Shown here piece by piece: positions 37,344-43,784 of a stretch of DNA of 64,000 nucleotides. Origin of the DNA: Paenibacillus xylanexedens. Its GTDB lineage: Bacteria > Bacillota > Bacilli > Paenibacillales > Paenibacillaceae. The translations under genes were made by a program, and so were the position numbers. Each line of letters begins with the position of its first letter. Position 1 is the first letter of the stretch. Below the pieces are notes generated by a model, which worked only from the letters and a program-made list of their open reading frames with translations, made no database searches and was not told the origin of the DNA. The stretch lies in assembly GCF_001908275.1 (NCBI RefSeq), contig NZ_CP018620.1, positions 372,001-436,000 on the forward strand. The letters are read 5' to 3'.

Positions 37344-37988
37344 CTACAATTTGCCCAAGGCATCTTCAACCGGATGCTCCCCGGCAATTAGATCAAAGGC
37401 CATTCGGTACGTCTTCTCTTCCTGCAAAGAAGCCACGATTACGCGGGCTACATCTTCACGCGGGATGCTTCCTGGCTCCAGATCGGTTCCAACTGCGATC
37501 TTACCTGTGCCCGGTTCATTCTTCAGACCACCTGGACGTATAATCGTGTAATTGAGATCACTTGCAAACAACACACGATCCGCATAATGTTTCGCCACGT
37601 AATAAGGCTTAATGGACTCTGACCATTTCTCCCGTTAATCTGCGCCATACGCACTGACCAGAATATATCTGGAGATTCCTTGCTGCTCTGCGGCTTCCAT
37701 CGTTTTCACCGCACCGTCGAGATCAATAAGCAGTGTTTTGTCCTGACCGGTAGATCCGCCAGAACCGGCCGTAAACACAATGGCATTATGATCCTTCATT
37801 GCCTGAGCCAAATCCTCTACACTACCCTCCAGGTCACCAATCACCACATCTGCACCGAGTTCCTTCAGTGCATCCGCCTGCTCCAGTTTGCGGATCATAG
37901 CCGTTACTTTATGTTTGCCTTCCTGTGCCAGCTGTTCCACCACAAACTTTCCGATTTGTCCATTTGCTCCTATAACTAAAACGTTCAT
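37344..37988 (-). pseudogene. NAD(P)-binding atypical SDR (YhfK-like), broken by one stop codon
   Basis: The frame encodes 117 residues starting MNVLVIGANGQIGKFVVEQL, reaches TAA at 37637-37635, and continues in the same frame for 96 more codons (REKWSESIKPYYVAKHYADRV..., then IIRPGGLKNEPGTGKI). The total of 214 codons equals the normal length of this family and nothing is missing. The family usually has a residue such as Gln before REKW, so CAA or CAG to TAA is the likely change. Either the gene is recently inactivated, or the C-terminal part restarts at GTG 37598, or the base is a sequencing error. The intact protein would be a soluble NAD(P)H-binding reductase-like enzyme. Confidence 0.8.
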
Positions 37989-40237: not shown

Positions 40238-40282
40238 GTGAAGATATTGTGAACATTGTAACAAAATCGATTTTTTTGTCAA
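40238..40282 (-). promoter_or_regulatory. promoter of DUF1641-ndh with Rex-like site
   Basis: On the minus strand TTGACA (40282-40277), 16 bases, TACAAT (40260-40255). TTGTTACAATGTTCACAA (40264-40247) overlaps the minus-10 and matches 12 of 14 defined positions of the Rex consensus TTGTGAA-N4-TTCACAA, with another TTCACAA just downstream. NADH-responsive control by Rex is known for Bacillus yjlC-ndh. Confidence 0.6.
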
Positions 40283-40645
40283 CCCATGAAGGCAAGCTAA
40301 CACCGCCGATCCTCCTGTCCAAGATCCGTATTCCTACCACATGTGGTATTAAGACAAGATCACATATGACCAGATGTGCGATATGTACACAAGGAAGGAT
40401 TTGTTTATCCAAATGTTCAGGAATTGTTTTCCAATATCACAATTTTCATGCAACGAAATTGGTCACTATCGTTATTATGCAGCGTTGGGCTCAGCCTTAT
40501 TCCAACATTGAGACATCTTTTCTATTTCAAGTATGAACCTCTTGCGTCACGAATGCAAAAAAAAGACAGAAAGAAGGCCTGACGGATCGCCCTGCCTCCT
40601 GATACTTGTTTTCACTTTTTGCCCGATCTGATCGGTACAATTAGG
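40283..40645. other. gap without recognised gene
   Basis: Frames of up to 95 codons exist on the plus strand but none has a ribosome site or family resemblance. No clear hairpin with T-run was found for the sigma gene that ends at 40646. Confidence 0.4.
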
Positions 40646-42445
40646 TCAAACCATAACTATTTCTGGGGAATACTGATCCATTTCTTCAAGCAATGCTTTT
40701 ATTGCAACGACGGCGGCTCGCTCCAATTCCTCCACTTCCAGCAGTATCGAGATGGCCTGATCCGCATGAAGCTTCTCATTAGGCAGTCCTCCATCTGGAA
40801 AAGGAAATAATTCTGCGAGTGTATTTAACTTTTGGGACATGTTTCGATATAACTCTTCTGCCTGAAGACAGAATGGAATCAAGCTGGAATAGCTGGCAAT
40901 CGAAGCCCACTTTAGTGAAAGTTCTTTGAAAAACTCACTTGCATAACGTCTTGCATCCCACAAAACCGCAATGTTATAGGCGTGACCATTCGGTTCTACC
41001 CGTCTGTATTGTAGGGCTTCTCTCCAGACTGCATAGGCAGCCACACCACTGACTGTGTTCGGCAAGGTATACGGGTCCTCTCCAAGATAATGAGCCAACG
41101 TAGCTGTCAGTGCCGCGCGCAAGTTCATTTCTCGTATCATGCCATCTGATTCCGCTACCAGTACAAATACTTCCTGATTCACGCCCCGGCCTACATGATC
41201 ATAGGCAATTGTTCCTGATTTAATGAAATCGGTACCGTATAGGATCCGGGCTGCATCATCATAGCCATAGATCAACCCGAATTCGGGAATATTCAGGTCC
41301 CACACGACGGCCGGAATTCCCCGATGAATGGCGTAACGTATCAGGGAGAGTGCCTGAACAAGTCTTGGATTAAGCAACCTTTTCCCCTTCGCTTTCTCCT
41401 CTAGCATCGAAGGATCGACCAGATTGGCATTGAGTCCCGCTTCGCTCGCCAAAGCCTCAACCGCATGGGAACGATAACCCATATGTTGCAATCCTCTTGT
41501 AAGCACCTCTTTGAAGTTATAGGCGGTAGGTCCAGCAATATGTATGTCCTGAGGCAGGATGGTCAAACGAAAAGAAAGTCCACTCATCCCCATAACCATG
41601 GGGAGAGACGGAGATGGATCGATATAACCTAACATCTCGTGAATGGATGCTGCTGCCGAGTTCCAGGTTTGGGGAGTCCGAAACGAGAGGGGTTCCTCCA
41701 GAGTCACTCGATTTTGCCCGAGTGAATTCCACTCGGCCAGCATTTCTTCTACAGATAAATGAATATGAAGCTGAGACACTTTTTTACGTGAACGGGACAG
41801 AATTTGATACACATTGGCACTTGTCAGGTTGAATTTGCAGGCCATTTCTTGCGGTGACAGCTGCTCCATCCAATATGATGTGAAGACCTGTTGTTCTCTT
41901 TCATTCAGACAACCCAACAGCCTGTGGAGATTGTTCCTCATTTCCTGCTGAGCAACAGCTTGATACGGATCATTGCCTGTCTCCTGCGAGCTTCGATTTG
42001 AGTCATTCAAAAGATGATTCAGCGTCATGTCGAGCGAGTCTTGATCGCTCCATGAGGCATCATCGGCTCCGAATCCAAATGCAAAGAACGAAGAAAAATG
42101 TTGTTCCCGCTGCTGCTTTTGGCGCTGCATATGTGAGTACGCCTGATTACGTACAATACGCTGCATCCAGGCCATAAAACGCTCAGCATTCTGAAGCTGT
42201 CCCATATGAATGAACGCACGAATAAGCCCATCCTGTAAAATGTCTTCTGCGAGATAAGAATCATACGTAAGCGCTCGCACATAACGAAACAATTGCCCAC
42301 GGTAACGGTGAATCAACTCTCCAAAGGCCTCTGTATCCCCCGTTTGGGCTCGTTGGATAAGCGCGATATCCGGCTCCTTTTGCCGATCCTCTAATATCTC
42401 ATCTTCCCCTGGCCTGATATGGCGATTGTTAGTTAATCCATCCAT
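40646..42445 (-). CDS. ECF-type sigma factor fused to a large BtrH_N-like C-terminal domain
   Basis: Residues about 25-110 are a sigma-70 region 2 (LIQRAQTGDTEAFGELIHRYRGQLFRYV, DILQDGLIRAFIHMGQL). About 165-225 are region 4 (CLNEREQQVFTSYWMEQLSPQEMACKFNLTSANVYQILSRSRKKV). A further ~370 residues follow, three times the normal length of an ECF factor. Their start (GYIDPSPSLPMVMGMSGLSFRLTI) and middle (IRYAIHRGIPAVVWDLNIPEFGLIYGYDD) resemble the papain-like BtrH_N fold, without an obvious catalytic Cys. This may be a built-in sensor that controls promoter binding. AAGGGAG precedes the ATG. It lies 37 bases after a gene for a related-looking enzyme; no anti-sigma gene is adjacent. Confidence 0.8.
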   Translation of the reverse strand: MDGLTNNRHIRPGEDEILEDRQKEPDIALIQRAQTGDTEAFGELIHRYRGQLFRYVRALTYDSYLAEDILQDGLIRAFIHMGQLQNAERFMAWMQRIVRNQAYSHMQRQKQQREQHFSSFFAFGFGADDASWSDQDSLDMTLNHLLNDSNRSSQETGNDPYQAVAQQEMRNNLHRLLGCLNEREQQVFTSYWMEQLSPQEMACKFNLTSANVYQILSRSRKKVSQLHIHLSVEEMLAEWNSLGQNRVTLEEPLSFRTPQTWNSAAASIHEMLGYIDPSPSLPMVMGMSGLSFRLTILPQDIHIAGPTAYNFKEVLTRGLQHMGYRSHAVEALASEAGLNANLVDPSMLEEKAKGKRLLNPRLVQALSLIRYAIHRGIPAVVWDLNIPEFGLIYGYDDAARILYGTDFIKSGTIAYDHVGRGVNQEVFVLVAESDGMIREMNLRAALTATLAHYLGEDPYTLPNTVSGVAAYAVWREALQYRRVEPNGHAYNIAVLWDARRYASEFFKELSLKWASIASYSSLIPFCLQAEELYRNMSQKLNTLAELFPFPDGGLPNEKLHADQAISILLEVEELERAAVVAIKALLEEMDQYSPEIVMV

Positions 42446-42482
42446 GTATATCTCCCTTTCTTATAGCGTCGCTTCACTTTCA

Positions 42483-43415
42483 TTACTCCATCTTCAAAAT
42501 AGAAGCTGCGATCATGGCTTCCGTCTCCGCGAGTGCCACCATGATTGTCGCAGCAGCCTCCCAGTTCCGAGAGACCAGACGGGATTGGCATTCACCGAAT
42601 TGGCGGGATTGTGCGTATTTCAAAGCAGAAAGGTCAGGATGGATTGTGTTAAAAAACAAACCATAATCATGGGCACGACGCGCGCCTACTGGCAGAGCAA
42701 AATACACATAATGAGCCCACTCATTACCATCGATTGCTCCAGCACGAACCTGTTCCGCCTTATGCAGAATGGCTGAAGCTCCGGTTCGTCCTTCCTGTGC
42801 AGCAATATCATGGGTCTGTTCTGTAAGGGTTGATTTGAACCAAGTGAAAGCCCGGCGGTTAATCTCCTCCAGATCAGGATGTTCAATGCGTTCAGGACTC
42901 CACCATCGTCGATACACACCACTACTCCATGGGAATTCAGACTTCCATGCTTCCTCAAGTTTATCCAGTGTCAGGAAGACATTCGGAAATCCAGCCGGGT
43001 CATGCAGACATATTTCATCGCCCCTCATATTGAGCGCAACTACATAATGATCGCAACCACCCAGGTTGGGAGAGTTGGGATTGTAGACGAGTTTGCCCAT
43101 ATCCAGCGGCCCCATCATCACAGGGCCCTGCTTCAAAGCCTCTCTTAGCTCATCTACAGGCATCTCTGTACCCCGTGCTTGCACACTTTCGCGCACACTA
43201 AATCCCAGAATGCTCATCGCCTTGCTGATGGCCAGATCAGGACTGGAGGTACAGTTATCAAAAAAAAGCATATCTTCCTGCGTTCGAAAGGCCCCTAGTG
43301 AAAAGCCACCGATGGTTTCAAGCAGACCGGGATCTATCTTTTCTCCAATGGACGACAGCAGCATTGAAGCTGAATTGGCGTAACAATACGCACCATTTCC
43401 AATATAATTGCTCAT
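42483..43415 (-). CDS. papain/C39-like (BtrH_N-type) protein, probable cysteine peptidase or acyltransferase
   Basis: This 310-residue soluble protein starts GNGAYCYANSASMLLSSIG, whose Cys is placed like the nucleophile of papain/C39/BtrH_N folds. GGCDHYVVALN provides the His and CLHDPAG an Asp/Asn position. The C-terminal 130 residues are helical and of unknown type. BtrH transfers an acyl group from a carrier protein in butirosin biosynthesis; others in the superfamily are peptidases. The ATG at 43415 has AGAGGA 9 bases upstream. It is the first gene of a two-gene operon with the sigma fusion protein and may make or destroy its signal. Confidence 0.7.
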   Translation of the reverse strand: MSNYIGNGAYCYANSASMLLSSIGEKIDPGLLETIGGFSLGAFRTQEDMLFFDNCTSSPDLAISKAMSILGFSVRESVQARGTEMPVDELREALKQGPVMMGPLDMGKLVYNPNSPNLGGCDHYVVALNMRGDEICLHDPAGFPNVFLTLDKLEEAWKSEFPWSSGVYRRWWSPERIEHPDLEEINRRAFTWFKSTLTEQTHDIAAQEGRTGASAILHKAEQVRAGAIDGNEWAHYVYFALPVGARRAHDYGLFFNTIHPDLSALKYAQSRQFGECQSRLVSRNWEAAATIMVALAETEAMIAASILKME

Positions 43416-43607
43416 ATCATAACATCCTCTCATTCCTTTAATGAAGCACGCAATTAAGCAATGCCTATACTTATACTGACTCTTCGTACAGATCATTTCT
43501 GACAGAATATCCAGAACAAATTTCTGACCGCCACGAAATAGTGAACGTTTAGAATGCGGACATCCCGGTTAATAAGGACTACACCAGAAACGAAGGAGAT
43601 GTTCGAT

Positions 43608-43784
43608 ATGAGTAATTCAACTGGCGACAAAATCAAAGCAGGCGTAAATAAAGCCAAAGGCGAAGTGAAGGATCAGATCGGTAATGCAACCAACAACAGA
43701 TCCCTTCAGGCTGAGGGTAAAAAAGACAAAGCCAAAGGTGCTGTACAGGATAAAATTGCCGACATTAAAAAAGATCATCACTAG
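43608..43784 (+). CDS. CsbD family stress protein
   Basis: This 58-residue hydrophilic protein matches the CsbD family: DKIKAGVNKAKGEVKDQIGNAT, then a second Lys/Gly-rich helix (GKKDKAKGAVQDKIADIK). CsbD-like proteins are general-stress induced and of unknown mechanism. The ATG at 43608 has AAGGAG 9 bases upstream. GTTTAG-N14-GGTTAAT (from about 43546) faintly resembles a SigB-type promoter. Confidence 0.88.
   Translation: MSNSTGDKIKAGVNKAKGEVKDQIGNATNNRSLQAEGKKDKAKGAVQDKIADIKKDHH

Follow-up and report, generated by a model that had tools for sequence, protein, structure and literature searches.

A candidate anti-sigma-free ECF sigma switch with a probable papain-like pseudo-enzyme domain and a related enzyme as predicted target in Paenibacillus xylanexedens

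In Paenibacillus xylanexedens (GCF_001908275.1), an extracytoplasmic function (ECF) sigma factor of 599 residues with a fused C-terminal domain is encoded directly downstream of a gene for a putative papain-like enzyme, here called the partner. We analysed the pair in a window of 64,000 nt (NZ_CP018620.1, positions 372,001–436,000, forward strand). The account that we favour, with modest confidence, is a self-contained, positively autoregulated switch that works without an anti-sigma factor, carries a pseudo-papain sensor and has as its target an enzyme acting on the inducer. The C-terminal papain-like domain (BtrH_N/C39 type), its nucleophile and histidine replaced, would serve as the sensor by holding or releasing the sigma regions, and the sigma factor would need no anti-sigma factor. 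Once active, it would direct RNA polymerase to one main promoter, TGTCAGA-N17-GTC, from which the partner and then the sigma factor itself would be transcribed. The partner, predicted to share this superfold and, having a Cys-His-Asp triad, to be catalytically active, would modify the inducing compound or one of the same class, and the response would end.

Both open reading frames (ORFs) lie on the minus strand where a first-pass annotation of the window had placed them (Table 1), and the partner gene ends 37 bp upstream of the sigma start. That annotation had described sigma regions 2 and 4 as intact, in agreement with our scan, where both passed their Pfam cut-offs and TIGR02937 matched at 88.1 bits (cut-off 42.9). 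Its statement that an anti-sigma gene is lacking likewise agrees with our scan, in which none was present among the neighbours of the pair.

When the sequences preceding the operon were aligned for 12 pair loci, two conserved blocks emerged, one of which is TGTCAGA-N17-GTC. A count over 76 loci (1.04 Mb), all selected because they contain sigma or partner genes, gave 32 copies of this core against 2.0 expected; 31 stand before an operon of the close sigma subfamily or a partner gene, and the last is background. The core precedes the partner gene in 15 pair loci (L078 and L126 have the same sequence, as do L076 and L164, hence two repeats). Counted by genome, the exact core is found ahead of the enzyme-sigma operon in all but one of the 23 pair genomes (22/23). 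The exception, G220 (L043/L140), is one base off, reading TGTCACA, which is the ECF41 −35 consensus in the available text of PMC3426412. Solitary genes of the close sigma subfamily carry the core as well, in 13/13 cases within the 76 loci and in 15/15 with G445 and G460 added; L109 is counted only if one of the start codons 53–71 bases past the motif is used, not that of the longest ORF. In the pair loci examined, the motif precedes the partner, and the 260 bases leading up to the sigma gene contain no core. This arrangement could reflect a partner gene that came to separate the sigma gene from an ancestral autoregulatory promoter. Taken together, these patterns argue strongly that the sigma factor reads the TGTCAGA-N17-GTC promoter and, since the partner lies under the sigma factor's own predicted promoter, we predict that it is first of all a target.

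Within the window's own genome, a loose form of the motif gave 4 matches; a reversed control gave 5, and for that reason we trust the operon site alone. A strict form, TGTCAGAAA-N13..17-GTCWW, gave 26 matches in 19 genomes (5 in the reversed control); 13 of these are at sigma or partner operons and most of the other 13 lie within ORFs. We had also used a 51-column weight matrix, which scored the sites at the partner at 17.6 in G153 (best shuffle 5.7) and 38.3 in G145 (best shuffle 5.0); it was dropped for the fixed core because the flank columns diluted the score. Separately, two related genomes (G246, locus L193, and G217, locus L182) have in common a second TGTCAGA-N17-GTC site between two opposite-strand genes, which may be part of a terminator.

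The core was also present at partner genes located away from the sigma gene. Among genomes that have a close-subfamily sigma factor, three of four unlinked partner genes carry it (G145 at −105, G445 at −69 and G153 at −198, a greater distance than in the others); in the fourth, G460, the partner lies behind an AraC-GyrI gene and has no motif. The core was found at the partner in none of the 16 genomes with an intact unpaired partner that we searched and found to be without a close-subfamily sigma factor (3/4 versus 0/16, Fisher exact test calculated by hand, 4/1140 = 0.0035). Locus L120 has a core about 690 bases upstream of the partner, inside another gene. Partner genes under ECF control are scattered over the partner tree, in which the ECF label takes five changes, at least three of them forced by starred branches; the root of this tree is arbitrary and the L168 branch is very long.

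The two genes were adjacent in 15/15 pair genomes of a first survey, and 8 more such genomes were confirmed in a second. The first-pass annotation had treated conserved adjacency as a mark of the pair, and adjacency did hold, within one genus; outside that genus the two genes are far apart in 5/5 genomes (G145, G153, G445, G460 and G114, the last with a broken partner copy). Three near relatives (G038, G025 and G107) keep the flanking genes, with flanking DNA that is 88–98% identical (98% in G038), and lack both genes and the motif. As for mobile-element marks at the cassette border, the window contains no tRNA and the flanks show no long repeat. The motif, the joint presence and absence of the genes, and the motif at unlinked enzyme genes suggest a close enzyme-sigma tie, for which support is now much better than the first-pass annotation could know.

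That annotation had further proposed that the partner makes or removes an acyl or peptide signal sensed by the degenerate domain, enzyme activity being the input of the circuit. As a general rule, this direction is not supported. An unbroken close-subfamily sigma match is present in 28 genomes (G011, whose match is split over two frames, was left out). Of these, 10 have no partner match, and among the other 18, G114 has only the broken copy; judged by these genomes, the sigma factor does not need the partner to make or remove a signal, and the partner is thus no obligate signal maker. The solitary sigma genes keep the promoter motif all the same, and the same enzyme family adjoins unrelated AraC and MerR regulators. 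The proposal does gain from the superfold that both proteins appear to share, from the close spacing of the genes on one strand and their joint loss in the three near relatives, and from the overlap of its removal half with the switch that we favour. We consider it unlikely, with a small chance of being right.

For the partner, a Pfam scan gave BtrH_N at E = 0.018 and Peptidase_C39 at E = 0.15, both below the cut-off, and no transporter domain in its 310 residues. Its relatives match these families better: at E ≤ 0.01, 51 of the 82 members of the partner alignment match BtrH_N (best 9.3e-9), 17/82 match Peptidase_C39 and 6/82 Peptidase_C39_2, and relatives in the protein database are annotated with PF27157.1. 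The first-pass annotation had noted a preserved Cys-His-Asp set, and the alignment agrees, with Cys11 kept in 80 rows and both His123 and Asp139 in all 82. A structure prediction, also suggested there, yielded a confident AlphaFold2 model (mean predicted local distance difference test score, pLDDT, 94.9) in which the Cys is at a helix start, the His near a strand start and the Asp at the end of the next strand, which we take to be the papain-like order. A sequence search of the PDB returned two weak unrelated matches for the partner, and sigma-type matches only for the sigma factor. Going by its family associations, the partner is most likely a hydrolase or an acyl or aminoacyl transfer enzyme that acts on the inducer or a compound of the same class.

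Two other roles for the partner bear on this assignment. It could be a protein regulator that pairs with the degenerate domain, pairing being frequent between related domains, and holds the sigma factor as an anti-sigma factor would; the domain homology and the adjacency in one apparent operon resemble a sigma/anti-sigma pair. Yet the strictly conserved catalytic residues would be needless in a pure binder, and the partner match is missing from the 10 sigma genomes mentioned above, leaving this role a slim chance. Alternatively, it could be a protease that activates the sigma factor by cleaving away its C-terminal domain, as in proteolysis-activated ECF factors such as IutY. The partner is near the C39 peptidases, and proteolytic activation of a fused ECF factor is known, according to the available text of PMC8999054. 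Against cutting, solitary sigma factors in the same 10 genomes keep the domain, and the domain also occurs alone or joined to other sensor domains, where cutting would be senseless; we find this role very improbable.

The C-terminal domain of the sigma factor comprises 364 residues, in which a Pfam scan found no match anywhere. Compared as profiles, the domain and the partner family aligned over 194 columns with a probability of 83.9% and a pairwise E of 7.7e-6, and the same alignment pairs PEFGLIYGYDD of the sigma factor with the CDHY region of the enzyme; a relative of the domain, in L093, matches Peptidase_C39_2 at E = 0.0023, below the cut-off. The BtrH_N/cysteine-peptidase fold that the first-pass annotation had assigned from motif resemblance is therefore moderately supported at the profile level, as a distant relationship between the sigma domain and the partner enzyme. 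In a 52-row alignment that includes stand-alone members, the Cys slot holds Ser (30 rows), a gap (9), Thr (6), Ala (5) or Pro (2) and never Cys, and the slot aligned with the enzyme His holds Glu (47), Phe (2), Asp (2) or Gln (1) and never His. The domain had been called degenerate for its lost Cys, and the Cys is indeed gone; the loss of Cys and His, however, is by this alignment a family-wide trait, common to stand-alone relatives and not peculiar to this sigma factor. Because neither residue appears in its slot in any row, the members of the domain family are probably pseudo-enzymes. A different view would have the domain act as some other type of enzyme, or as a passive platform, with the sigma factor controlled by its own transcription only. 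The domain does show strong residue conservation, which could reflect catalysis, and Ser is the commonest occupant of the Cys slot; on the other hand, the aligned His slot lacks His throughout, and an autoregulated sigma factor without a gate would, we infer, stay on permanently. We give that view a rather small chance.

Some members of the domain family are attached to ECF sigma factors, some are stand-alone proteins of roughly 330 residues (in which a Pfam scan found nothing above cut-off) and some are joined to other domains; 141 of 295 genomes of the same taxonomic family carry some match to it, matches of any kind included. In a tree of 52 domains chosen by us, with long branches flagged outside the closest fusions, a single clade (100/100) unites the 19 closest sigma fusions and contains another made up of the six paired fusions (100/100), and the sigma-fusion label overall takes three changes. 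P0203 is a fusion of the pseudo-enzyme domain with a GyrI-like one; in L093 and L096, of about 850 residues, an ECF sigma factor is followed by the pseudo-enzyme domain and then by glyoxalase-like repeats. L098, of similar length, gave no glyoxalase match. In L079, L086 and L088 the sigma-fusion gene is followed by genes for two paralogous stand-alone domain proteins, with a Cass2/GyrI-like protein also present in L079, and in the window's own genome (L112:6502-9493) a WYL regulator gene precedes two stand-alone pseudo-enzyme domain genes in tandem. This company of GyrI-like, glyoxalase-like, WYL and Cass2 domains points, by association, to a ligand-sensing role for the domain. L094, L095 and L097 are also similar in length to L093 and L096, and L092 has a set of WYL and domain genes similar to that of L112, divergent from a sigma fusion. 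The window's own genome also encodes a second ECF sigma factor of 527 residues with a different fused domain, DUF1835 (L113:5839-7419).

We read the surroundings of 23 intact partner loci unpaired with this sigma factor (L114, L115, L117–L124, L156–L163 and L165–L169); the broken G114 copy and the fragmentary matches in G030 and G151 were left out, and G351, G373, G388 and G413 were not read. In 15 of the 23, the directly adjacent same-strand gene encodes a regulator with a GyrI-like domain, of AraC type in L118, L119, L122, L124, L157 (split into two ORFs), L161, L162 and L165, and of MerR type in L120, L121, L156 and L166–L169 (L167 and L169 assigned without a Pfam scan). Since L166–L169 all belong to a single genus, with MerR proteins that share 89–95% identity by a simple position count, they are hardly four independent cases. 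The ECF motif takes the place of a GyrI-type regulator in three loci (L114, L117 and L163). GyrI-like domains are annotated as small-molecule binding, which makes it probable that the enzyme takes part in responding to small molecules.

A broader proposal, which we put forward tentatively, is that Paenibacillus-like bacteria possess a large ECF class, so far undescribed, whose members use a domesticated papain-like pseudo-enzyme to sense a natural product, with a live relative as the response enzyme, and that this enzyme has been taken over repeatedly by three unrelated kinds of regulator, ECF, AraC-GyrI and MerR-GyrI. If this is true, all three kinds of regulator would recognize one shared chemical class. 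The regulators of AraC and MerR type beside the enzyme family offer an independent route to the ligand. In the present case a predicted promoter and an operon output come together with a clear-cut natural contrast of presence and absence and with a proposed sensor related to the enzyme that it is predicted to control; what the fused domain senses is directly testable here with a reporter.

Several observations weigh against the switch as we propose it. The partner match is absent from 10 of the 28 close-subfamily genomes, and five of the 23 unpaired partner loci (L115, L123, L158, L159 and L160) are without both the motif and a regulator of GyrI type, the MerR protein in L158 being without a GyrI match. 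The exact core is present in 0/14 fusions of the distant subfamily that were tested; three of them (L084, L091 and L098) have TGTCAGA or TGTCAGG, 17 bases and ATC, located at −60 to −71, which may be an autoregulatory promoter that has diverged. By the weight matrix, neither the window's site (3.8; best shuffle 12.4) nor that of G445 (5.6; best shuffle 7.4) was conspicuous, and the strict search of 19 genomes gave no convincing target beyond sigma and partner genes. Homology between the sigma domain and the enzyme draws on one moderate profile score and the motif agreement, and small-molecule binding by the domain and the function of the enzyme are both suggested by family associations.

Table 1 Features of the enzyme-sigma pair (positions in the window)
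Feature	Position	Strand	Basis
ECF sigma factor with fused C-terminal domain, 599 residues	40646..42445	-	ORF list and Pfam
Sigma region 2, residues 44-110	42116..42316	-	PF04542 (Sigma70_r2), E = 2e-11
Sigma region 4, residues 171-222	41780..41935	-	PF08281 (Sigma70_r4_2), E = 3.7e-9
C-terminal papain-like probable pseudo-enzyme domain, residues 236-599, proposed sensor	40649..41740	-	Family alignment, profile comparison, tree
Partner gene, 310-residue BtrH_N/C39-like predicted enzyme, intact Cys-His-Asp triad	42483..43415	-	Alignment, AlphaFold2 model
Partner Cys11 codon; in the model, start of helix 11-21	43383..43385	-	Cys in 80/82
Partner His123 codon; in the model, near start of strand 122-131	43047..43049	-	His in 82/82
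Partner Asp139 codon; in the model, end of strand 134-139	42999..43001	-	Asp in 82/82
Predicted ECF-type promoter of the enzyme-sigma operon, TGTCAGA-17 bases-GTC, drawn including the next A	43477..43504	-	Core before operon in 22/23 pair genomes
Two-gene cassette and promoter, missing as one block at the corresponding site of three near relatives	40561..43545	.	Limits from G038

On one side of the pair are genes for a DUF1641 protein and a pyridine-nucleotide oxidoreductase, and on the other CsbD, cupin and VTT genes; a small ORF nearby (40249–40536) had no family match. The divergent CsbD gene (43546–43784, plus strand) begins right at the cassette border and is preceded by a conserved block, CGTTTA ... 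GGTTAATA, which we take to resemble a sigma-B promoter. Further away, a gene for an NAD-binding epimerase-like protein (37344–37988, minus strand) lies in two ORFs of 117 and 84 residues; relatives have one ORF of 214 residues (for example, L068:9620-10261), and the window's copy is a broken gene or a sequence error.

Among known systems, the partner can be set beside BtrH, the butirosin acyltransferase with the BtrH_N domain (PF14399), and the C39 peptidases (PF03412, PF13529). It is like BtrH in that more than half of its aligned relatives match the N-terminal papain-like domain, and unlike it in that partner loci often adjoin regulator genes and the partner itself falls below the BtrH_N cut-off. 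We noticed no aminoglycoside cluster at partner loci, although no search was aimed at one. In the predicted model it resembles C39 peptidases in the placing of Cys, His and Asp on a helix/strand frame, and it differs in being a 310-residue protein free of a transporter domain. The MerR and AraC regulators with a GyrI-like effector domain, presumably of the BmrR/Rob type, are comparable as one-protein regulators with a small-molecule domain beside the same enzyme family; they are DNA-binding regulators with a GyrI-like sensor, whereas here a sigma factor carries a pseudo-papain domain. BtrH_N, which is part of acyl carrier protein (ACP):aminoglycoside acyltransferase, is close to C39 and C70, as stated in the available text of PMC10318531.

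Fused-domain ECF factors make up at least 26 groups, for 15 of which the mechanism is still to be studied, as the available part of PMC8999054 relates. It lists ECF115, ECF264 and other groups with unstudied extensions, whose representatives include Bacillus and Saccharibacillus strains; the likeness lies in having extensions, compared by table description only, and our sigma factor may carry such a group number. In the open-licence library searched, which does not include the ECF classification paper, we found no paper on an ECF factor with a BtrH_N, C39 or papain-like domain.

Closest in design is ECF41 (Ecf41Bli, SigJ), which, in the accessible text of PMC3426412, has no anti-sigma factor, a fused C-terminal regulatory domain, a TGTCACA-n16-CGTC promoter and a neighbouring enzyme gene as the sole target found. 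Copies of that promoter are found in front of either gene, enzyme or sigma, and in many cases ahead of an operon that joins the two (PMC3426412). The target enzymes are a carboxymuconolactone decarboxylase, an oxidoreductase or an epimerase. The P. xylanexedens system resembles this description in its fused domain, its predicted TGTCA-type −35 and GTC-type −10 elements, an adjacent enzyme as predicted target and scanned neighbours free of an anti-sigma gene. It differs in having a BtrH_N/C39-like enzyme as target, TGTCAGA in place of TGTCACA at −35, and a papain-like domain of about 364 residues where ECF41 has a SnoaL-like one (PMC8999054). Because the sigma factor lacks both a SnoaL-like domain (no SnoaL match up to E = 10) and the WLPEP string, a feature of the ECF41 region 2–4 linker (PMC3426412), its sequence does not place it in ECF41. 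By analogy with what these sources describe, the proposed circuit would operate as ECF41 does, its sensor being instead an unrelated pseudo-papain domain.

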